Shown here: positions 14,128 through 30,600 of the stretch, in pieces
How the letters are laid out: each line of letters starts with the position of its first letter
Numbering within the stretch: position 1 is the stretch's first letter
Source of the DNA: Spirogloea muscicola
Lineage: Eukaryota; Streptophyta; Zygnematophyceae; Spirogloeales; Spirogloeaceae
DNA length: 38,268 bases
Assembly (NCBI GenBank): GCA_009602725.1
Contig: WELB01000029.1
Location: 905,848 to 944,115, forward strand
Direction of reading: 5' to 3'
Program-made: the position numbers and the translations under genes
The notes under the pieces: model-generated
Database searches by the model: none
Seen by the model: the letters and a program-made list of their open reading frames with translations, nothing else
Told to the model about the DNA's origin: nothing

Positions 14128-14163
<36 letters not shown>
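14128..14163. repeat. Poly(A) run of 36 nt followed by G-runs
   Basis: A 36-nt A run followed by a purine-rich stretch with several G homopolymers (about 14164-14260). It lies just past the 3' end of the minus-strand BPM gene, on which it reads as poly(T), so it is not that gene's poly(A) tail. The unusual composition suggests low-quality gap-filled sequence. Confidence 0.6.
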
Positions 14164-16769: not shown

Positions 16770-16853
16770 ACTGAGCATCCATGTGCACCATTTCGTGTCT
16801 TGGTGTGTAGTTTGGTCTTTCCTGGCACTGTTTTGTGGCCTTTTGAGGCCTTT
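16770..16853 (+). mobile_element. Non-LTR retroelement 3' tail fragment (tail A)
   Basis: Begins CTGAGCATCC and runs through GTCTTGGTGTGTAGTT to TTTTGAGGCC, matching the post-stop tail of the copy at 28214-28300. It lacks the hairpin part of the tail because it is fused at 16854 to another copy. It lies close upstream of the BPM gene. Confidence 0.75.
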
Positions 16854-17087
16854 TCGCTGCGGCCTCCGGCTTTCGTCAGGGGGATAGTTTACCGGCAGCT
16901 AGTCTGTCGGATGTGAGGCTCCTCACTCGTAACTACGAAGTGGTCCATCCTCCCCCGTTCTGCCATAGCCTCTTCAGGCCCCGCAGTCGCTGCTTAGCTC
17001 GTACTTTGGCCCCTTCGAACCTTGTCAATTCTTTTCGGGCTGGCTTCTCACAGCCCTTGCCCTCATTGGGAGAGCCACTTCTTCTTC
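16854..17087 (+). mobile_element. Truncated retroelement copy (ORF end plus tail B)
   Basis: Encodes the last ~30 residues of the element ORF (AAASGFRQG through LLTRNY). The stop seen in related copies is lost: here the last codon is followed by GAA instead of TGA. Tail B follows (GTGGTCCATCCTCCCCCGTT), with its hairpin at 17039-17058 and the terminus at about GAGAGCCACTT. Bases 16854-16978 form the left arm of a 125-bp inverted repeat with the minus-strand copy at 17167-17291. Confidence 0.85.
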
Positions 17088-17165
17088 TTTTGAGGCCTGC
17101 TGACGATGTCCATTCTTTTGGGCTGGCCTCTCCCAGCCACCAGTTAATCTGGCCGCGCTTGCTTC
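17088..17165 (+). mobile_element. Retroelement 3' tail fragment (tail C)
   Basis: Carries GATGTCCATTCTTTTG, hairpin 17120-17138, then CCACCAGTTAATCTGGCCGC ending in GCTTGCTT, the 3' end of tail C seen again at 25332-25380 and, inverted, at 23565 and 27674. It separates the two arms of the large inverted repeat. Confidence 0.8.
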
Positions 17166-17368
17166 GCCTGAAGAGGCTATGGCAGAACGGGGGAGGATGG
17201 ACCACTCAGTAATTACGAGTGAGGAGCCTCAAATCCGACAGACTAGCTGCCGGAAAACTATCCCCCTGACGAAAGCCGGAGGCCGCAGCGAGAGCACGGC
17301 CAGCACGCAGATGCAAGGCGTGGGCCATGGACCGCTGAAGGGAGACGGACAATCGCATCGTAGGAGAA
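17166..17368 (-). mobile_element. Truncated retroelement copy, minus strand (tail B type)
   Basis: Minus-strand reading gives MRLSVSLQRSMAHALHLRAG, then GRALAAASGFRQGDSFPAAS and LLTRNY with an intact stop near 17206, followed by the start of tail B. The rest of its tail is missing because it abuts the plus-strand tail C fragment. Bases 17167-17291 are the right arm of the inverted repeat. Confidence 0.85.
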
Positions 17369-17518
17369 GGGGGCCAGGGGAAGCGCTCAGAAAAACAAGC
17401 ACAACAAGAAACAAAGCAGCTACGCATTACTCAGTAACCCCTGCTAACACAGCCTCAAGTCAGAGAAGCTAGGCTCCTGGAAGTTAAGTCCCCTGGCGAG
17501 AGCCAGAGGCAGAAGCCC

Positions 17519-17550
17519 CTGCTAGCCCCTCCTTTTCTATGGGCGAGCTC
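17519..17550 (+). mobile_element. Terminal piece of retroelement tail A
   Basis: GCTAGCCCCTCCTTTTCTAT followed by GGGCGAGC, the right hairpin arm and terminus of tail A. It is only about 32 bp, so it is a relic. Confidence 0.6.
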
Positions 17551-17809
17551 CTCCCAGGCACTCGCGATACACCAGCGTGCTGGTCGTGCATTTGCCCATG
17601 CTAATGGCTTCCGTGGTGGTGGTTTGGCGCCTCAGTATAGCTAGTCAGATATGCATGTGCTCACTCGGGGATGTTTAGTGTCCCCCTTACCCACTTAATA
17701 GGACATTTGTAAGGCTAGAGCTGGCCTCCCTTTCAAATTCACGCGCACTGCGCCTTCCCTTCCTGGTGCTGCAGCCCCTCTGCAGCCCGCATGGAAAGGC
17801 AGCTCATCC
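17551..17809. other. Unassigned interval between retroelement relics
   Basis: About 260 bp with no recognisable coding motif or tail hairpin. It may be older, more diverged element sequence. Confidence 0.4.
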
Positions 17810-18090
17810 AACAGGGTGAGTGCTGGACAAAGAAAGGCGCGGCCAGATCGACTGGTGGACGAAGCAAGCCTGAGAAGAGTTGACAAGGTCCGCAAAGTGC
17901 TGAAACACACGACTGAGCAAGTACCATGTGGAGACTCCTTCGTAACCTCTGGTTGGCAGCCGCATGTCAGAAAGCTTAGCCTTTCGGAATGCAGTCCCCT
18001 CGACGAAAGCCAGCGGCTGCAGCTAGAGCATGGCCAGCGCGCAGATTCAAGGCGTGAGCCATGGACCGCTGGAGGATAATCTGTCTGGGC
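17810..18090 (-). mobile_element. Diverged retroelement copy, minus strand (tail C type)
   Basis: Minus-strand reading begins with SMAHALNLRAGHALAAAAG, followed by frame breaks. A diverged tail C follows: GACCTTGTCAACTCTTCTCA, then a form of CACCAGTCGATCTGGCCGC near 17840. The hairpin is no longer intact. It is an older copy than those at 23565-30600. Confidence 0.7.
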
Positions 18091-18548: not shown

Positions 18549-21500
18549 CTATGAGCCCAAACTCTCAACTGTCTGAGTTAGCCTGTTCAGCTGGGATGTC
18601 AGAGCCTGCAATCGGGTCTGAAAAGAGGCCACACATTGGCCCTCCTCCTGTGTTGCATGCGCATAAGGTCTAATGAGCTTCTCTACCTGCAGATGCAGAG
18701 TATCAAGGGACTCGCTCAACTCCACCTGCAGACCTTCTTCCAAGCCACGCGCCACGGCATCAGCGGCTCTCCTCACCTTGGCTTTGACCTCCCCTCGTCT
18801 CAATGGGAGATTGAGGACCCCAACGTACCTGCAGAACCAGAGCGATAAAAATTAGACTTCACAATAGTCAAATCTTTGCCAAGCTCTGTACAAGAGTGTG
18901 TGTGGAGTCGATACGTATTTGAACTTAGGCCTGACGAGGAAAAGCTTTAAGTGCTTGCAGATTCAGAAGGTTGTAGTGAGAAAGCTGCACTGCTGCAACA
19001 TACCGACGAGGAAAAGCTTAAAGTGCTTGCAGATTTAGAAGGTTGTAGTGAGAAAGCTGCACTGCTGCAACATACCCTCCAGCTGAGCACAAAGCAAGCG
19101 CCAGCAGGTCCTCCAATGTGGTGGGCAAGATCGTGGTGAGTACTGATGCCGACACGCCTGCTGCGCTCACTCCAGCAAATGTGCCAAGCACCTGCAGCAG
19201 AACCTCCCCAAAACCTACTCAGTAAAATACGAACGCATCACAGGGAGCTCATATGCAGCAGCTTGCAGTGCCCATGCAAGTGACACTGGAGTCTGACACA
19301 CCAACATTGATGTAGCGATTGCAATTTCAAGATATGGACACATTCCAATCATCTACCTACATCCAGATGTCTGAGGCCATCACCCGAGGTTGTGTGAGAT
19401 CAATCATGATGCACTGCAAGCTACAAAAGCAGTCAAGATTCTCACAACTTGGCGCAGCTCTTCCTCCAGGACAAGAGCAGCAGCGTGGGGATTAAAGCTT
19501 TCTAACAGCTCCATTGTTTTTGGCTGCTTCATTGTCTCATCCACGTCTTCAGTGACCGCAATGACCTCATGCACTTCTGATGTCAAATGAGCAAGGTCGG
19601 GCCACCGTTCCTTCGTAAAATCTTTGTAGTTGCGGAGCTGGCGTGCGATGTTGGAAGACAACCACTGACCGTGCTCCTCCAGTGCTCTCTGGACCCAGTT
19701 GAGACCACAAATTGTTTCTCACAATTACCCCATTGCGCCCAAGACTCACTCACATTCTTGCATGGCGTATCTTATAACAAGCAGGGACAGAAGTTGAGGC
19801 TGCACCTTCACATCTGCAGAAGTTGACCCCATGATCTCCTTCTCAAAGTTGGATCCTACAGGCAGTGAGGAGCTGGAGCTCGACCCAAGGACGTAGCCTG
19901 CCAGTGCTTGCACATTGGAAAGGGACAACGTCCTGTCCACAAGCCGCTCTGCTCGCGTTTTCGCAGCATCAACCTGCTCAATGTCACTCGGTCAATCTAC
20001 AGATTCCAGCAAGACAACACCAAGTAGCATGCCTGCACCAGCCTGCCTTATTGAGGCAAAACTCCTGCCTCGTAGCATCGGCATTTGTGCTGCTGAAGGC
20101 ATTCCATCTCACCATGGAAAATATGCGCTGCCGCTGGACCAATGCATCCTTGCGCATGGCATCCTCGTACCGGGCCATCTGCGCTCCGACGCTCTCGATG
20201 GCCTGCCGGTCCTGCGTGGCCTGCTCCGCTCGCTCTGCCAGCTGCCGGGAGCAGGCGCTCAGCAGGACGGACCCAACCCCCAAGGGCGTACCCAACTTCA
20301 GCCTCATGCGCTCAGCACCAGCATCAGTGCTGCCTCCCAAGAAGCCGAAGATAAAGTCCTCCAGCTCTTGAAAGCCGCTGGACCTCCACCCCTGGTCCTG
20401 CTCTAGTCTGGTCTTGCTCGTGCCGAGCTTTGCTTTCAAGGCTCTTCGAGCTGAGACAGGATAAACGGGTACTGGCGACACCCCGAGGAGCTTCTCTGCA
20501 TTCACCTGCACAAACTGGAGGACCTCCTGAACCTGCAATGTCGTACAGGGGAACATAACTGTCAGCCGCAAAATTAAGCACAAATGTTGAGGACAGTTGT
20601 CGAAGTGGACAACTCTGGAGGCTGATTGAAGTGCAGGTACAGCAGCCTCATCATGGCTTGTTTTCGAAGAGATGCCAACCAACCTCAGAAACCTCGGTCA
20701 AAACATCAGCCTTGTTGAGGATGAAGATGACCTTCTTGCCCCACTGTCTGATATATCGCAAGAAGGATACCTGCATCATCCAACATTCCAGGTGCATGAC
20801 ATTCACAAGCACAAAGATGTCACTAAAATGTGCCTGATAGCTAGTGCAGGCTTGGGTCTCACTCGGCAACTCCACCATGAGTCCTTCTTTGTGTGTGTAA
20901 GCAGATATGAGCTGCTTGTCACAAGAACCGAAGCACATTAAAACCATTAGACAATTCTGCGTACCTCAGACTCTGTCAGTGGTCGATCAGCGGAGAGGAC
21001 AAAGAGCACAAGGTCTGCCCTAGGAACAAACTCCTCTGTCAATCTTTGCTGCCTTTCCAGGATGACATTTGTCCCAGGCGTGTCCACCAGATTCATCTGC
21101 ACAACTCAAGACTTGATTATTGTTGCTGTCCTTCTCCATTTCAAAGTGCTAATCTGAAGCCGAGGTGACTGTATCTGGAAGCTAGACTAGAGCTTCATGA
21201 GCTCTGACTTTAAATTGCCATTACTGAGGGTGGCAATCAGCCACCAACCTGCTTTAGGAGGTTGGCTGGCAGATACTTCAGAAAGTGGCCATCCGGATGC
21301 CGCTCAGCTTGCTCCTCCTCTCCTTCCTTGTCGCTATGCTTCAGCATGGTAATCTCGTTTGTTGTCGGCACAACACCCTCCTTCAAATACTTCTCTCCAA
21401 GGAGGGCATTGATCACCGACGACTTGCCCGAGTTGAACTCCCCCTGCAGTCACACAATAGCGGTCTCTACGGGTTGTCGGAAGCTGCAAACCCAGAGCCA

Positions 21501-23564: not shown

Positions 23565-23780
23565 GCGCGGCCAGATTAACTGGTGGCTGGGAGAGGCCAG
23601 TCCAAAAGAATGGACAAGGTCTGACAGCAGTGGCTGCGAGGATGAGTGGCTCTCCCAATGAAGAAGGGCTCGCCGATTGAGAATAGGTGCTGGAAAAAGC
23701 CAGCCCAAAAAAGAATGAACAAAGGACGAGAAATGTGGCTGTGAGAGGCCAGCCCAAAGGAGTCCTAGACAAGGTCTAGG
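23565..23780 (-). mobile_element. Three inverted retroelement tails in series
   Basis: On the minus strand there are three tail modules. Tail C has its terminus AGCAAGCGCGGCCAG and hairpin at 23585-23603. A tail D module (hairpin 23689-23706) has the TTTGTTCATTCTTTTTTGGG box. A third module has its hairpin at 23737-23755. None has ORF sequence, so all are extreme 5' truncations. They lie directly upstream of FZL. Confidence 0.8.
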
Positions 23781-23854
23781 AGCGCCCTGTCTGCCTAGCC
23801 TGTGGTTCCGCTCCGCTAATGTGGTCATGAACACCCTCTGTATGCACCTGGCTG

Positions 23855-24000
23855 GTTACTGAGTGCTTCGTAGCTGCTTCGTTTCTTTTCTGTGCTTGTT
23901 GTTCTTCGTACTTCCCCTGGCCCCTTCTCGTCCTTTGTTCATTCTTTTCTGGGCTGGCTTTTTCCAGCCCCTATCCTCAATGGGCGAGCCCTTCTCTCTT
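23855..24000 (+). mobile_element. Retroelement tail D
   Basis: Begins TACTGAGTGCTTCGTAGC, followed by CCCCTGGCCCCTTCTCGTCC, the TTTGTTCATTCTTTTCTGGG box, hairpin 23951-23970 and the terminus CAATGGGCGAGCCCTTC. A close relative lies at 26843-26950. Confidence 0.8.
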
Positions 24001-24250
24001 TTACAGCAGCTCCATTATAATCAGCAGCCGCATTCTTTCTAGGCCGTCGGCTCTAGAAAAGAAAGAAGTTAGTGAACTCTGCCAGAGGGGGCGGGGGCTG
24101 TGAATGGCTAGCCTGTGTCTATTTGTGTAGGTTTTCCTTTCGGCACCTCTTCTGGCTTTGAAATTTGTCCATTCTTTTTGGGCCACTTCTTCTTTTGGGC
24201 TGGCGTTGCCAGCCGCTCTTCTCAAGGGCGAGCCCTTCTCTCTTCTCTAA
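24001..24250 (+). mobile_element. Diverged retroelement tail
   Basis: Holds TTTGTCCATTCTTTTTGGGC, then a short duplication of the box before the hairpin at 24197-24215 and the terminus AAGGGCGAGCCCTTCTC. The upstream 150 bp has no recognisable element ORF. Confidence 0.65.
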
Positions 24251-24289
24251 GGGCGAGCCACTTGCTCTGGCCCTAGCCAGGGAAACCGC

Positions 24290-24450
24290 TACCAGGAGAC
24301 CAGAGTCTCCGACCTGCGGCTGCTTAGTAGGTGCTTCCTGAGTGTTTTGTAGCTCTTTGGTTCCGTGTGTGTCTTAGCGTTTCCCTGGCCCCTTCGCACT
24401 TTGTTCATTTAATCTGGACTGGCCTCTCCCAACTACCGCCCTCTCCGCCC
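24290..24450 (+). mobile_element. Diverged retroelement tail D fragment
   Basis: GCTTAGTAGGTGCTTCCTGA, then CCCTGGCCCCTTCGCACTTT and GTTCATTTAATCTGGACTGG. The hairpin at 24416-24433 is decayed. Confidence 0.6.
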
Positions 24451-24479
24451 TCTCCAGGAACCCAGTCTCGGCGAAGTGC

Positions 24480-24695
24480 CTCTTTCCAGCTTCTGACTTG
24501 CCGTTATTCTGACTTGCTGTTGCTCACTCGTGGAAACTGAGCATTCCTCTGCATCACTGCGTGTCCTGTTGTGTAGTATTTTCTTTTCAGCACCGTTTTG
24601 TGGCCTTTGGATATTGTCCATTCTTTTGTGGGCTAGCGTCGCTAGCCCCTCTTTTTCTATTGGCAAGCAGTTTCTCCTGGAAGCGCCTTTCTTCT
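24480..24695 (+). mobile_element. Truncated retroelement copy (ORF end plus tail A)
   Basis: ORF remnant ends DLLLLTRGN with a stop at about 24540. Tail A follows with GGATATTGTCCATTCTTTTG and the hairpin at 24630-24648, which reads GGGCTAGC-GTC-GCTAGCCC: both arms changed together relative to the common GGGCTGGC form. Confidence 0.8.
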
Positions 24696-24774
24696 TCTCT
24701 TACTAGTCACAGCCCACGCCCCTTGCGGAAGAGCTGCTTCTTCTCCTCTTTTTATGGGCAGGCAAAATTCTTTC

Positions 24775-25244
24775 TGCGCTGGCGATTGACGTGCACGGGG
24801 CCTTGGCATGCTCGCCGGGCACGCGGTCGCTTTGGCGGCTCGGAGTAAGGAGGAAGTGCTCGCCCATAGAGAAGACGGGCTGGCAAAGCCAGCCCAAAAA
24901 GAATGGACAATGTCCACAGCCAAAAAACGAGGTGCCGACAAAGGACTACGCCACGGAACACTACAAAACACAAGGCGATGCAGAGGGAAGCTCAGTACCC
25001 TCGAGTGAGCGGGTAAGGAGTAAGGAGCGCAAGTACGCTGACCACCCTCCAGGCGATGTCTACGCGGCCCTGGCCATTGACGTTCACGGGGCCTTCGGCA
25101 GTGGGCTGGTTGGATCTCCTCCAACGGCTTGCCCGGCAGGCTATTGAGCGGCGGCCGGGTTTGCAAGGCTTCAATGCAAACCCCCGACCTGCGGGCCCAG
25201 ACCCGGTTCACTGCGCTCGTGGACAAAGCGGCCTATGATTTCCC
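24775..25244 (+). mobile_element. Retroelement ORF fragment, interrupted by a tail insertion
   Basis: A short LAIDVHGA piece is fused to LAGHAVALAARSKE. After the insertion at 24853-25016 the ORF resumes as KYADHPPGDVYAALAIDVHG and then decays. The sibling copy at 27430-27540 has the same ORF without the insertion and acts as an empty-site control. Confidence 0.85.
24853..25016 (-). mobile_element. 164-bp tail-A insertion with 11-bp target-site duplication
   Basis: The direct repeat GGAGTAAGGAG flanks it at 24842-24852 and 25017-25027. On the minus strand the insert reads from the end of an ORF remnant (CTCACTCGAGGGTACTGAGC) through the FZL-side box TTGTCCATTCTTTTTGGGC, hairpin 24877-24895 and GGGCGAGCACTT at its 3' end. 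There is no poly(A) tail. It interrupts the ORF of another copy. Confidence 0.9.
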
Positions 25245-25381
25245 ATCTACTGACTAGAGGTTACTGAGAGTTCGCTTACTGCTGTCTCAGTCCTTAGCAC
25301 TCCGGCTCCTTCAGACCTTGTCCATTCTTTTGGGCTGGCCTCTCCCAGCCACCAGTCAATCTGGCCGCGCTTGCTTGCTTG
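25245..25381 (+). mobile_element. Retroelement tail C
   Basis: GAGGTTACTGAGAGTTCGCT, then CTGTCTCAGTCCTTAGCACT, a GACCTTGTCCATTCTTTTGG box, hairpin 25332-25350, CCACCAGTCAATCTGGCCGC and GCTTGCTTGCTT. The same tail occurs inverted in the insertion at 27674-27787. Confidence 0.85.
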
Positions 25382-25398
25382 CTATGATCAGGTGGTGG

Positions 25399-25540
25399 GT
25401 ACTGAGCTTCCCTCTGCATCGTATGTGTTCTGCAGTGTTTTGTAGTGTAGTCCTTTCTCCGGCTCCTCTTTCTTTGGCTTTGGACGTTGTCCATTCTTTG
25501 TTGAGCTGGCTTAGCCCCTCTTCTCTATGGGCGCGCACTT
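25399..25540 (+). mobile_element. 142-bp tail-A insertion with 17-bp target-site duplication
   Basis: The 17-bp direct repeat CTATGATCAGGTGGTGG flanks it at 25382-25398 and 25541-25557. The insert begins GTACTGAGCTTCCCTCTGC and ends GGGCGCGCACTT. It contains a shortened hairpin (25503-25517) and no ORF. The duplicated target lies in the ORF of the copy that continues at 25541. Confidence 0.9.
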
Positions 25541-26600
25541 CTATGATCAGGTGGTGGAGCTCCTCCCGCCGCGCGACCTTCGAGGGCGCGCCCGGATCCT
25601 CTCCGCCTCCTACCCCGGGGCAGCGGCGTGGTAATCAGCGCTCTCAATCTACGCGGCGCTCACAGTACCCGACGAGGTTTTCAGGACGGCGGTCCACGGG
25701 CTCCTGGGCCCCCCCTCCCTGCTTCGTCAAGGAGCAAGCGCGGCCAGATTAACTGGTGGCTGGGTGCGGTGTTTTGTAGAGTAGTCCTTTCTCCGGCTCC
25801 TCTTTCTTTGGCTTTGGACTGTCCATTCTTTTTTGGGCTGGCTTTGCCAGCCCCTCTTCTGTATGGGCGCGCACTTCTCTCGCCCCCCCTCCTCACCATC
25901 CACAACCTCCTCCGTGATGCTCTGGCGGGTTTGATGCGCGACGCCGGGTACCGTGCGGTCGTGGAAGTGAACAACATCATGCCTATCACCACGGATGCCC
26001 AGGGACGTCATCATCTCCGCACACTTGACATTGTGGGCGTGCAACCTGGTGGAGGACCAAGGGCTTTGGTCGATATTGTGGTTACGGAGGCCTATAAAGG
26101 TCCAGCATCGACACACATCGCTGGCCACGCAGTGGGCAGTGCTGAACAAAGAAAGGTGCAGCACTACTCCGATTACCCCCGATGTGATCAGCTCTTGCCA
26201 GCAGCAATCGACATCTTTGGCTGCTTAGGTCCTCGTTTCCTTACTCTCCTTCAAAACATAGCCAATCTAGGCTACACACGACATGCAGATGTGTTCCCGG
26301 CTGAGATGGGCTTGCCAGCTGCTTATCTGTCGTTGTTGCGACGACGAGTTTCGGCCTGTTTGCAGCGTGCTCAGGCTAATGCTTTGCACCAGAAAGCTGG
26401 GCGAGCTCTAGTTGGTAGCAGAAGGGCTTCGTATCTGCCATCTAGTATCCAGGCATCGGTTAGCGACCTTTATGTTTTGACCCGTGGTTTCTGAGCGGGT
26501 CAATCTACTGTAGGTTATGTAGGTCTTAAGATGTGCTTGCCTTTGTACTTGGCCATTTGGCCTTCGTTTGTTTCAAATACACGAAACCTTCCTCACCCCG
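25541..26600 (+). mobile_element. Longest low-decay ORF fragment of the non-LTR retroelement family
   Basis: The ORF reads DQVVELLPPRDLRGRARILS and SYPGAAAW, then one in-frame stop (about 25632) and VPDEVFRTAVHGLLG: the linker after the reverse transcriptase in this kind of element. It is interrupted at 25735-25875, then resumes HNLLRDALAGLMRDAGYRAV. Next come LDIVGVQPGGGPRALVDIVV (an aspartate pair spaced as in restriction-like endonucleases), DQLLPAAIDIFGCLGPRFL and the end SVSDLYVLTRGF with a stop at 26494. Reverse transcriptase and the zinc knuckle are absent. The ORF is more diverged from the other copies than they are from each other, and its 3' tail differs, running into telomeric repeats. 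Confidence 0.8.
25735..25875. mobile_element. Composite insertion: inverted tail C joined to forward tail A
   Basis: 25735-25766 is an inverted tail C end (GCAAGCGCGGCCAGATTAAC). 25767-25875 is a forward tail A (TGCGGTGTTTTGTAGAGTAG, hairpin 25835-25853, GGGCGCGCACTT). Together they interrupt the ORF of the surrounding copy and replace its zinc knuckle. Confidence 0.75.
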
Positions 26601-26637
26601 GGTTTAGGGTTTAGGGTTCAACCCCAAACCCAAACCC
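26598..26637. repeat. Inverted pair of interstitial telomere-type repeats
   Basis: GGGTTTAGGGTTTAGGGTT is followed after two bases by a C-rich run, CCCCAAACCCAAACCCT. The first arm is exact plant-type TTTAGGG; the second is slightly degenerate. It directly follows the 3' tail of the copy ending at 26600. Confidence 0.85.
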
Positions 26638-26654
26638 TGATACTCAGACCTGAT

Positions 26655-26815
26655 GTTGCTCACTCGTGGGTACTGAGCTTCCCTCTGCATCGTTTCTGTG
26701 TTCTGCAGTGTTTTGTAGTGTAGTCCTTTCTCCGGCTCCTCTTTCTTTGGCTTTGGACATTGTCCATTCTTTTTGGGCTGGCTTTGCCAGCCCCTCTTCT
26801 CTATGGGCGCGCACT
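26655..26815 (+). mobile_element. Retroelement tail A
   Basis: ORF-end remnant GTTGCTCACTCGTGGGTAC, then GAGCTTCCCTCTGCATCG, a GGACATTGTCCATTC box, perfect hairpin 26775-26793 and GGGCGCGCACTT. The 13-bp repeat TCCTCACCCCGGG lies on both sides of the telomeric repeat plus this tail (26590-26602 and 26830-26842). Confidence 0.85.
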
Positions 26816-26842
26816 TCTCTCGCTCCCCCTCCTCACCCCGGG

Positions 26843-26950
26843 AACTCTGCCGCCTCCGTCTCTTAGCGCTTCCCCTGGCACCCTTCTCGTACTTTGTTCA
26901 TTCTTTTTTGGGCTGGCTTTTCCAGCCCCTAACCTCAATGGGCGAGCCCT
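26843..26950 (+). mobile_element. Retroelement tail D
   Basis: CTTAGCGCTTCCCCTGGCAC, TTTGTTCATTCTTTTTTGGG, hairpin 26910-26928 and CAATGGGCGAGCCCTTCC. No ORF sequence. Confidence 0.8.
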
Positions 26951-27062
26951 TCCTTTGTAGTGTAGTCCTTTTTCCGGCTCCTCTTTCTTTGGCTTTGGAC
27001 ACTGTCCATGCTTTTTTGGGCTGGCTTTGCCAGCCCCTCTTCTCTATGGGCGCGCGCTTCTT
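26951..27062 (+). mobile_element. Retroelement tail A, short
   Basis: GTAGTGTAGTCCTTTTTCCG, an ACTGTCCATGC box, perfect hairpin 27018-27036 and GGGCGCGCGCTTC. It starts abruptly after a tail D terminus. Confidence 0.8.
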
Positions 27063-27105
27063 CTGCTGGGAGAGGCCAGCCCAAAGGAAAGGACAAGGCC
27101 TCCCT
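27063..27105 (-). mobile_element. Inverted retroelement tail fragment
   Basis: On the minus strand: GGAGGCCTTGTCCTTTCCTT, then the hairpin GGGCTGGCCTCTCCCAGC (27065-27082). Only this 43-bp piece is present. Confidence 0.65.
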
Positions 27106-28365
27106 GCCTCGTTGGGGTCCAACAGTGCGAAAGCTGTACCCGCCACGATGACCCTGCGGCGCTGGCTGCCCATATGCTCCGCTGCGCGCACGGAGGCGAG
27201 CGGACCGGTACACACGACCTCCTGCGCGACGCCATGCAGGGTGTGTTCCTGGAGGCCGGCTACAAGGTGGCAGTGGAAAACACGACAATTATGCCCATCC
27301 AGCGCGGCGCCGACGGACTGCTTCACAACCGACGCACTGACCTAGTTGCCATCCCGCCCGGCGGAGGTCCGCATATCATCGCAGATGTGGTGACTGCAAA
27401 TTGCCGATGCCGCCAACCCCGTAAAATCGGCGACGCTCGCCGGGCACGCGGTCGCTTTGGCGGCTCGGAGTTAGTAGCGCAAGTATATTGACCACCCTCC
27501 AGGCGATGACTTCGCGGCCCTGGCCATTGACGTTCACGGGGCCTTTGGCAGCGGCTGGTTGGATCTCCTCCAGCGGCTTGCCCGGCAGGCCATCGAGCGG
27601 CGGCCGGGTTCCCCCAATGCCGCCGGCTCCCTTGCTCAGGTATTTCGAATGAGGCTGGCGGTCTCGCTCCAGCCTAAAAAGCAAGCGCGGCCAGATGAAC
27701 TGGTAGCTGGGAGAGGCCAGCCCAAAAGAATGGACAAGGTCTGAAGGAGTCGGAGTGCTAAGGACTGAGACAGCAATAAGCGAACTCTCAGTAATCTCTC
27801 GTCAGTAGATGCAAATCTGAATAGCTAGCAGGCGGAAAGACGTCGCCCTGACGGAAGCCGGAGGCCGCCGCCAGAGCGCGGCCTGCGCGCAAGTGGACCG
27901 CAGAAGCTAGGGACCGCTGCAAAGAGACGGCCAGGCGCATCCGGAAAACTTGGGCGAGGGACCCGGCGACATGGAAGCCAGGCTGCTCGCCCTGCTGCCC
28001 GTGGCGGCGGGCCGCTGCTCGCCACGCAAGGCGGTGAAGTTGGTCAAGCCATTTGCGGCCAAAGGCGCCGTGTACGTCGAAATCCAGCGCTCTTTGGCTC
28101 ATGCGTTCGACACGCGCGCTGGCCGCGCTATGGCTGCTGCCTCAGGGTCTCGGCAGAGCGCCGCTTTTCCTGCTTCGACTTATTCTGATTTGCTGTTGCT
28201 CACTCGTGGCTACTGAGCATCCACCTGCATCGTTTCGTGTCTTGGTGTGTAGTTCTGTTTTTCCGGGCGTTGTTTTGTGGCCCTTGAGGCCTGCGGGCAT
28301 TGTCCAATCTTTTCTGGGCTGGCTTTGCTAGCCCCTCTTTTTCTATGGGCGAGCCTTCTCTTTCT
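27106..28365 (+). mobile_element. Retroelement copy with zinc knuckle and endonuclease-like region, split by a nested copy
   Basis: ORF order: QQCESCTRHDDPAALAAHML followed by RC (a C-x2-C-x11-H-x3-C knuckle); HDLLRDAMQGVFLEAGYKVA; RRTDLVAIPPGGGPHIIADV (Asp pair of a restriction-like endonuclease). After a frameshift near 27420 the ORF continues LAGHAVALAARS, DDFAALAIDVHGAFG and LAQVFRMRLAVSLQ. A minus-strand copy then interrupts it (27674-28087). The frame resumes RSLAHAFDTRAGRAMAAASG and ends LLLLTRGY with a stop at 28216. Tail A follows with hairpin 28316-28334. This copy gives the best view of the family's domain order; the reverse transcriptase is truncated away. Confidence 0.85.
27674..28087 (-). 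mobile_element. Nested retroelement copy, minus strand (tail C type)
   Basis: Minus-strand reading begins FDVHGAFGRKWLDQLHRLA, then LAQVFRMRLAVSLQRSLASA and LRAGRALAAASGFRQGDVF, ending LLTRDY with a stop near 27788. A full tail C follows with hairpin 27705-27723 and ending GCCGCGCTTGCTTTTTAGG. It splits the host ORF between VSLQ and RSLAHA, with TCCAG at both borders. The ORF is open and close to its host in sequence, so it is a recent insertion. Confidence 0.88.
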
Positions 28366-29125
28366 TCAATGCTGTCGGCCCTCGCCCAGGTATTTCATAT
28401 GAGGCTGGCGGTCTCGTTCCAGCGCTCTTTGGCGAAATTATAGATCATCTCCACCAGAGATTGCCAAGCATTTGGGACTAAATACCCTCCATGTAGAGTT
28501 ACTAAAGGAAATAGAAGTAGAGCTACTGTGATAGCGAGTAATTTGAATGAAGGTGATTTGGTAAAAGAAAGGTGAAAATTTCCAATACCAAAAGGGATAA
28601 TAGATAGAATGGCAAATTGCTCCAATGGACTCAAATCATGAGAATGTGATTTTTTGCTTTACTGTTACCACCAACTATAGTGAGAAATCCACGATTTGCT
28701 TCTGCAAGCTTGTGAAGATCATCTCTTCTCTTAAGCGCAGCGCTGCTTTTATTGGCAGCATCCAAAATTTCGACTTTAATCATTGTTCTAAGCTTAAAGA
28801 CTTTTTTGTCCTTTTAATAGCTGCTTCACGAATCCAACGAACTTGCTAAGCTTTCTTGGCGCTGTGCTGAGATGATAGACTGTGAGCTCTTTGGCTCACG
28901 CGGTTCACACGCGCGCTGGCCGCGCTATGGCTGCTGCCTCAGGGTCTCGGCGGAATGCCACTTTTCAATGCTTCGAGTTACTCTGATTTGTTGTTGCTCA
29001 CTCGTGGTTACTGAGCATTCCTCTGCATCATTTCTGGTGTGTAGTTTTTATCTTTTTCTTCGGATTTGGACATTGTCCATTCTTTTTTGGGCTGGCTTTG
29101 CTAGCCCCCCTTCTCTCAGGGCGAG
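28366..29125 (+). mobile_element. Truncated retroelement copy split by mitochondrial DNA
   Basis: The left part, 28366-28433, encodes QVFHMRLAVSFQRSLA. The right part, 28886 onward, resumes in the same conserved stretch (LAHAVHTRAGRAMAAASGS-like, with a frame break). It ends LLLLTRGY at about 29010, followed by tail A with hairpin 29089-29107 and GGGCGAGCACTT. The mitochondrial piece sits between. Confidence 0.85.
28434..28885 (-). pseudogene. Nuclear mitochondrial insertion: rps7 3' end and atp6 5' part
   Basis: 452 bp, AT-rich unlike its surroundings. On the minus strand, from about 28840 to 28670, there is a decayed C-terminus of mitochondrial ribosomal protein S7: RWIREAAIKRTKKSLSLEQ, a TGA, a frameshift, then LKRRDDLHKLAEANRGF. 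A one-base deletion removes the ending, which otherwise would read HYSWW and stop. From about 28634 to 28434 the start of ATP synthase subunit 6 follows: SPLEQFAILSIIPFGIGNFH, then VTLHGGYLVPNAWQSLVEMI. It is flanked by the 10-bp repeat GCTCTTTGGC at 28424-28433 and 28886-28895. Not functional. Confidence 0.9.
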
Positions 29126-30385
29126 CACTTTCTCTTTCTCTTTCTCCATGATGGGCGGCCGATGCTACAGCTGGCTTTGGCGGAGGTGGCGACGGGATCG
29201 TGGCGTTTTCAGGTGGCGCTCCGCTCAGCTCAAGACGAGTTACTTGCGGAGCACCCTGCCTTGCAGAGAGCGTGGTCCCGTTTGCCCGCCTTGCCCACTC
29301 CACCGACTCGCAAGCGCAGGCGCGGTGCATGGCGCCAGTCGACACGGCGTCCGTCACGGCCACGCTGCAGCTCCTCCCTCCCACAGACGTGCGCGGCCAT
29401 GCTCGGCTGCTGTCGGCCGCCTCCCCTGGCGCGGCAGCCTGGCTCTGCGCGCCCCCCCTGTACGATGCCCCTCAGGAAGCCGGATTTACTTTTCCGTACG
29501 GCCACCCATCGCCTGTTGGGTCTCCCCCCGCCCTGTCCGCTTGCCGTGCTGCAGTGTGAGTGTGGGGAGCGGTCGACGGACCTGGCGGATCTGGCGGCGC
29601 TTATCCTCCGCTGCGCCACTGGAGGCGAACGTACAGCTGCTCACGACCTCATCCGAGACGCAATGTTCGGCATCTTCCAGTAGGCCGGAAAACGGTTGCG
29701 ATGGAGAATACGTCTGTCATGCCAATCCTCCAGAGGGCCGACGAACTCCACACGCGTCCACGCCGGGCGGCGGCGCGCGCATCATTGCGGATGTGGTCAC
29801 CACTGTTGTCGTCGACCGCTCGGGGCTCTCTGCCTCGCGGGCTGGCCACGCTGCGGCGAAGGCCGCTCGCAGCAAGGCGGCCAAACACGCCGGCCACCCG
29901 GCTGCAGATGAGTTCGTCCCCCTGGCTGTGGACGTGCACGGGGCTCTCGGGTCCCAGTGGCTCGACCTGCTGGCCAGGCTTGCGCGATGCGCCGTGTCAC
30001 GCAGGCGCGGTGAAGCCGGCTGACTCCAACGCCGCTGGCTCGTGGGCCCAGGTATACCGCATGCCATTGTCAGTCTCCCTTCGGCGGTCCATGGCCCAGG
30101 CCTTGCATCTGCGTGCTGGCCGTGCTCTCGCTGCGGCCTCAGGCTTTCGGCAGGGGGATAGTTCTCCGGCAGCTAGTTTGTCGGATTTGAGGCTCCTCAC
30201 TCGTAACTACTGAGTGGTCCATCATCCCCCGTTCTGACATGGCATCTTCAGGCCCCTTCATAGCTGCTTAGCGCTTTTTAGGCCCCTCCGTCATTTGGCC
30301 CCTTCGAACCTTTGTCAATTCTTTTTCGGGCTGGCTTATCACAGCCCTGCCCCCATTGGGAGTGCCACTTTTCTCTTGGGCAGTC
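29126..30385 (+). mobile_element. Longest retroelement copy in extent, with frameshifts (tail B type)
   Basis: Reaches furthest 5': LQLALAEVATGSWRFQVALR and LAEHPALQRAWSRLPALPTP, then (shifted) TATLQLLPPTDVRGHARLLS and SPGAAAWLCAPPLYD, then HRLLGLPPPCPLAVLQCECG (knuckle region, with its His replaced) and AAHDLIRDAMFGIF plus a stop. After further shifts it continues STPGGGARIIADVVTTVVVD, FVPLAVDVHGALGSQWLDLL and YRMPLSVSLRRSMAQALHLR, ending LLTRNY with a stop at 30212. Tail B follows, with hairpin 30328-30347. At least four frame breaks make it a pseudogene. Confidence 0.85.
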
Positions 30386-30600
30386 GGTGGCAGGACCTTC
30401 TGCTACCCGGCTTCGACTTGCTGCTGCTGACTCGGGTTATCAAGCTCCCATTCGCCGTGGTTTCTTGACGTGGCTGTGTGATTTGGCGCCTTCCGGCCCT
30501 TTTTGGATGGAGTCTCGTGCATAGTTGTGTGATTAAGAGGCGCTTTTCGGCTCAATGGACCTCGTCCACTCTTTTTCAGCCCCCGCCGCATTCGGAACAG
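30386..30600 (+). mobile_element. Diverged retroelement ORF end and tail
   Basis: CTTCGACTTGCTGCTGCTGA reads as the DLLLLTRGY ending of the ORF (about 30409-30442), followed by a diverged tail (GTGTGATTTGGCGCCTTCCG) with a GTCCACTCTTTTTCAGCCCC remnant of the box and hairpin. It abuts the 5' flank of the DA2-like gene. Confidence 0.6.

Follow-up and report, generated by a model that had tools for sequence, protein, structure and literature searches.

Long interspersed nuclear elements (LINEs) with a restriction-like endonuclease (RLE), retrotransposons without long terminal repeats (non-LTR), are best known for fixed host targets, namely ribosomal DNA (rDNA), U2 genes and microsatellites, and the excerpted text of PMC4640811 also describes many RLE elements without a fixed target. 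The same excerpt gives Utopia the layout zinc finger, reverse transcriptase (RT), zinc finger and RLE, and KX2KY residues characterise the RLE LINE endonuclease (excerpt of PMC5678591). In Zepp and ZeppL, insertion into existing copies produces nests of 5′-truncated copies (excerpt of PMC8226300), and Zepp, an L1-type LINE, forms one cluster per chromosome in Coccomyxa (excerpt of PMC3446292). Here we describe a nest of hairpin-tailed elements at positions 23565-30600 of a 38,268-nucleotide stretch of the Spirogloea muscicola genome, called the window throughout (C29:905848-944115, contig numbering within the 153.1-Mb, 471-contig assembly), and compare it with 20 further stretches that carry copies of the family (L009-L028; L022, at a contig end, spans only 2 kb). 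We favour, with a probability of about 0.62, the reading that this is a large R2-type non-LTR retrotransposon family that inserts by nicking and CTT pairing, and whose self-made landing sites let nests grow. That the family is an RLE LINE is far more certain than that it seeds itself.

Searches of Pfam revealed a LINE-type reverse transcriptase, with RVT_1 matches at E 9.6e-12 and 8.6e-11. A profile search of the Protein Data Bank (PDB) matched R2 proteins over the RT region (E 4e-4); with a single sequence there was no match at E 1, R2 being found by the profile alone. At the C-terminus we found a restriction-like endonuclease fold for which R2 was the best match in both fold and sequence, and the alignment holds the D...D and KX2KY residues as RADLVAIPPGGGPRIIADV and KERKY. 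An earlier note, made from the letters of the window, had claimed an RT protein with a Cys/His knuckle and a restriction-type endonuclease. The RT and the endonuclease were borne out; a Cys/His motif lies at the right place with the spacing C-x1-C-x12-H-x3-C (H changed to L in one D-type frame of the window), whereas the published RLE-LINE CCHC knuckle reads CX2-3CX7-8HX4C in the excerpt of PMC5678591. Judged from the sequence, the difference may be read as variation of the motif, and since the published spacing is absent, the filing as an RLE LINE rests on the RT and the endonuclease. The long RT-bearing copies that the note had sought were found in L027 (frame of 847 amino acids) and L028 (765 amino acids, L028:4501-6795), neither of them full-length with both ends proven. 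In the 765-residue frame, from an element with an unproven 5′ end, RVT_1 was the sole Pfam family above the cut-off; the predicted structure of the 847-residue frame was poor, with a mean predicted local distance difference test score (pLDDT) of 46. The open frame of this longest RT copy starts within, and in frame with, the endonuclease region of a different member of the family (L027:6283-6558).

The family thus shares with R2 and other RLE LINEs the RT, the Cys/His motif, the restriction-like endonuclease with KX2KY and, by eye, an N-terminal finger; it differs in the Cys/His spacing and in inserting both in its own copies and elsewhere. The zinc finger, RT, zinc finger and RLE layout is likewise that of Utopia, whose target is U2 small nuclear RNA (snRNA). 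Rfam scans of 14 of the 20 loci (138,614 bases) gave neither an rRNA nor a U2 match, and the window gave no match of any kind; R2 proper differs in its 28S rRNA gene insertion, which was not seen in the loci scanned. HERO and non-site-specific R2-like elements, compared by description only, are similar in being RLE elements that often lack a fixed target, and we know of none among them that lands repeatedly at sites within its own copies. In open PMC text we found neither a published description of the family nor an RLE LINE reusing own-copy sites. We therefore file it as a putative variant under RLE LINEs with no clade assigned, R2 in PDB being the only reference RT compared.

The 3′ ends are hairpin tails of at least five subfamilies (A-E, sorted by eye) with a common plan, GTCCATTCTTTT-GGGCTGGC-loop-GCCAGCCC, where the loop is GGCTTT. 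Copies finish in short CTT-rich runs after the hairpin, confirming that the tail lacks poly(A). RNAalifold analysis of 40 aligned tails, mostly picked from 65 representatives, showed a nearly invariant 5-bp stem with weak covariation (two-sided change in 1 of 40), and we infer by analogy with R2-type elements that reverse transcription may depend on recognition of this hairpin. Across the genome the exact tail box is found 3203 times, against none for the reversed box, and the window has 7 compared with 0.8 expected from the genome mean. The window and the 20 loci together hold 25 exact boxes and 98 tails by a looser pattern; scaled up roughly, from loci selected for family copies, these numbers suggest that there may be some 12,000 tails genome-wide. 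On C1 and C2, the two contigs of the 471 for which box positions were listed in full, exact boxes are dispersed along the contig. Thousands of copies in one genome make site choice directly testable.

The claim of more than 20 pieces in 7 kb held: 23565-30600 contains 15 distinct hairpin tails on both strands (two pattern scans, 14 and one more), further damaged tails found by BLAST (for example 27065-27101 and 25733-25764) and 13 reading-frame rows found by tblastn, and BLAST also located the pieces noted at 16770-18090. As to the claim that the 5′ side is always cut, in the 20 stretches collinearity with other copies begins between -44 and about -2830 relative to window position 27106, and none of them has a copy with a proven 5′ end. 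Pieces that reach the end broadly keep the 3′ tail, except that some tails are themselves cut. Both 5′ truncation and target-site duplication were found, as in RLE-encoding non-LTR retrotransposons.

The nest is at least four levels deep, comprising A0, A1, a short E copy and a composite block (Table 1). The nesting named near 24853 is a minus-strand copy at 24862-25016 in a host at 24810-24861 and 25017-25177. That named at 25399 is right as to the copy (25399-25540) and its host (25176-25238 and 25541-25728); the host stops short of 26600, because 25903-26592 is a piece of a related element with a different 3′ end. For 27674-28082 in A1, the genome mostly carries the interrupted copy without the insert: among the 41 matches listed to query 1-568, 37 are directly followed by a match starting at 978-992. 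Over the window and L009-L028 we found 37 candidate nested insertions, of which 13 were clear by eye and 20 passed a filter on flank length and a 4-24 bp duplication. Orientation (12 sense and 6 antisense of 18) was unsurprising for a coin toss.

The earlier note had proposed counting insertions in family copies against chance. We took 40 tails in listing order (36 on C1, 4 on C2) and scored the 40 bases just downstream; 40 random 850-base stretches of C1, 10 of them wholly N, left 30 usable as a control of 615 slots. Family DNA lay directly downstream of 19 of 40 tails, compared with 59 of the 615 non-N slots (9.6%, bootstrap 2-19%; P = 8e-10 against the mean rate and 3e-5 against the upper bootstrap limit). 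With a broader database, built like the strict one from the window and the 20 loci, the counts were 28 of 40 and 91 of 615. Family DNA receives insertions at about five times the rate expected from average occupancy, an excess that does not separate site choice from tolerance.

Several insertions fell on the same nucleotides. Site i (CTATGAYCAGG), in the reading frame, received five separate insertions, regarded as separate because the inserts, where visible, vary in subfamily or length. Three, in L015, L025 and at window 25489, are flanked by the host copy on either side; the fourth is window 25239-25381, and the fifth, on C241, is known from its 3′ join only. The E and B copies in A1 both sit at CTATGATCAGG. 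Four genome matches to the site i join were found (L015, L025, C241 and one breaking 15 bases away), and one such join for a neighbouring 13-mer; the site i 13-mer occurs 74 times against 12 for the control. Site ii, CTTCAATGC, received two insertions. Genome-wide, 175 tails abut the right arm of a different hairpin, compared with 67 joined near the box, with 0 and 0 in reversed controls, and the two search words were equally common (54 and 51 in the window and 20 loci). Among the 100 loop joins listed of the 175, 86 break in the loop, 10 retain one left-arm base (one of the ten seems unrelated by eye), 2 retain at least 3 and 2 are of other kinds; by eye, many box joins likewise break at CTT. 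Among the 196 flanks in the compared loci, the loop or left arm accounts for 16 joins, of which about ten look genuine by eye; another 4 lie upstream of the box, 5 within it and 3 closer to the end. Some loop joins have both hairpin halves flanking the insert.

To account for these data, we propose that the protein would recognise the 3′ hairpin of its own RNA, that its endonuclease would nick the target DNA, and that the CTT-rich 3′ end of the RNA would pair with a nicked target beginning with CT, priming a reverse transcription that would often stop early. This is the order of steps of target-primed reverse transcription in R2. Such pairing would lead to many insertions at sites beginning with CT, and each insertion would supply new landing sites, since the loop, the 3′ end and some frame sites hold CT starts and the duplication copies the site; nests would then grow as landing sites renew. 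The data suggest that landing sites are carried by the elements themselves. It is possible, and we put it forward tentatively, that the family is a self-seeding RLE LINE whose own hairpin loop, CTT-rich end and a few frame sites are preferred landing sites. If so, targets multiply with each insertion and the family creates its own safe havens, needing no rDNA or other host target; repeated use of sites in its own copies would show how specificity for host DNA can give way to specificity for the element itself.

Several results weigh against the favoured reading, some of which are also what tolerance alone would predict, namely that near-random insertions survive only in gene-poor stretches, which fill into nests. 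Downstream of 21 of the 40 tails there was no family-database DNA (12 of 40 with the broader database), the family already occupies about 10% of random sequence, and short-range clustering of exact boxes was moderate: neighbour pairs within 2 kb numbered 4 on C1 (1.4 expected; 96 of 2000 simulations as high) and 12 on C2 (3.7 expected; 1 of 2000). Tolerance alone fails to predict five hits on the same nucleotide of a dead reading frame or the concentration of joins at the hairpin loop over the box, and we consider it unlikely. Also unfavourable are the partial structural match to R2 (Foldseek template-modelling score by query 0.33-0.46), the report by Pfam of no endonuclease or zinc-finger family, an N-terminal finger recognised by eye only, doubts by eye over several of the 20 filtered events (for example L018 at 1504, window 25320 and 26896), and a noisy single-copy duplication search (59 of 210 versus 40 of 205 shuffled pairs). 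A short target motif, for which optimisation gave a C-T-N-T-G-like best fit, was dropped when 1 of 30 controls proved equally good. Of the preference for own copies or a motif that had been inferred, the excess over average occupancy and the reused sites stand, and the motif and a preference for the family as such are unsupported, as is an endonuclease that seeks its own copies; insertion-tolerant regions could add clustering.

Orphan hairpin halves were a further point of this kind: 10 of 145 right halves and 12 of 219 left halves, about five of the latter genuine-looking by eye, so that insertion into a loop does not account for all loop joins. The joins are of mixed origin, and orphan halves fit copies that start in the loop or template jumping, in which the RT moves between RNAs in one event and makes head-to-tail chains that mimic nesting. 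Template jumps are known for R2 RT. Here, for 7 of 20 tail-to-right-arm joins the matches listed within 3 kb include no orphan left half, several of the other left-half listings look by eye like chance matches, orphan right halves outnumber genuine-looking left ones, and a mosaic A/E tail occurs at 17087-17164. As an explanation of the nests, jumping is nevertheless improbable: about 13 nested events have, by eye, a two-sided host and duplicated target, including hairpin insertions (window 25765-27064; L015, L017 and L018). Under the favoured reading of landing sites renewed by nicking and CTT pairing, shared insertion-tolerant regions and RT template jumping probably add to the pile-ups.

Zepp has an apurinic-type endonuclease and a poly(A) end, and Dualen/RandI combine apurinic-type and restriction-like endonucleases. 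The earlier note had drawn the parallel to Zepp while pointing out the missing poly(A). The nesting analogy stands, in that nested 5′-truncated copies are common to this family and to Zepp/ZeppL of Coccomyxa, Chlorella and Chlamydomonas (excerpt of PMC8226300), and telomere-like repeats occur at 26600-26637. Membership was rejected because the endonuclease type differs; the fold here is restriction-like, tails end in CTT-rich runs, and boxes are spread over C1 and C2, whereas Zepp clusters once per chromosome. We regard Zepp-like centromere or telomere clusters, built by an L1-type LINE targeting its own copies, as very improbable. The favoured reading, if true, would make this family an independent instance of nesting in the manner of Zepp, achieved with another type of endonuclease.

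Table 1. Traced copies and pieces of the family in the window
Feature	Positions	Strand	Remarks
Outermost traced copy A0, reading-frame piece	24810..25177	+	interrupted at 24862-25016; resumes at 28364
5′-truncated copy with hairpin tail, inside A0	24862..25016	-	11-bp target duplication CTCCTTACTCC
Copy A1 with all nested contents, inside A0	25178..28363	+	flanked by the duplication CTTCAATGC (25169-25177, 28364-28372)
Tail-subfamily E copy in A1, site i	25239..25381	+	followed by CTATGATCAGGTGGTGG at 25382-25398
Tail-subfamily B copy, also at site i	25399..25540	+	17-bp duplication CTATGATCAGGTGGTGG
A1 reading frame, continued	25541..25728	+	
Short E copy in A1, 3′ half	25729..25764	-	duplication CCTCCCTGC(T/C)TCGTC; partner half 27065-27098
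Composite block, made up of pieces of B, C and F, within hairpin of short E copy	25765..27064	+	duplication GCTGGG by eye
Element F piece	25903..26592	+	related endonuclease frame (40% amino-acid identity), other 3′ end; possible duplication CCTCACC
Short E copy, 5′ half	27065..27098	-	separated from 3′ half by 25765-27064
A1 reading frame with Cys/His motif and a portion of the endonuclease domain	27099..27673	+	
E-type copy in A1, 409 bp	27674..28082	-	duplication TCCAGC, read from sequence
A1 frame end and hairpin 3′ tail	28083..28363	+	
A0, resumed	28364..28433	+	
Further 5′-truncated tailed copy	28886..29139	+	
Tail-subfamily D copy, reading-frame pieces and tail	29141..30374	+	
Outlying cluster, D copy (16852-17086) inside an A-type 3′ region (16770-16851, 17087-17127)	16770..17164	+	duplication CTTTTGAGGCCT

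The telomere-like repeats lie within the nest directly after element F and are inverted (GGGTTTAGGGTTTAGGG...CCCAAACCCAAACCC). TTTAGGG repeats and gene content suggest a green algal host. In the mosaic tail of the outlying cluster, the part upstream of the box resembles A-type tails and the part from the hairpin onward E-type tails, perhaps from template switching or recombination. Elsewhere in the window there are poly-A runs of 95 A (13-107) and 36 A (14128-14163), and a tandem pair of 72-bp units with 97% identity at 18933-19076. Among the compared loci, Rfam matched a group-II-D1D4-6 intron (E 4.5e-18) at L009:799-990 (minus strand; contig C16 of the same assembly) and a tRNA amid family pieces at L015:4510-4583 (minus strand).
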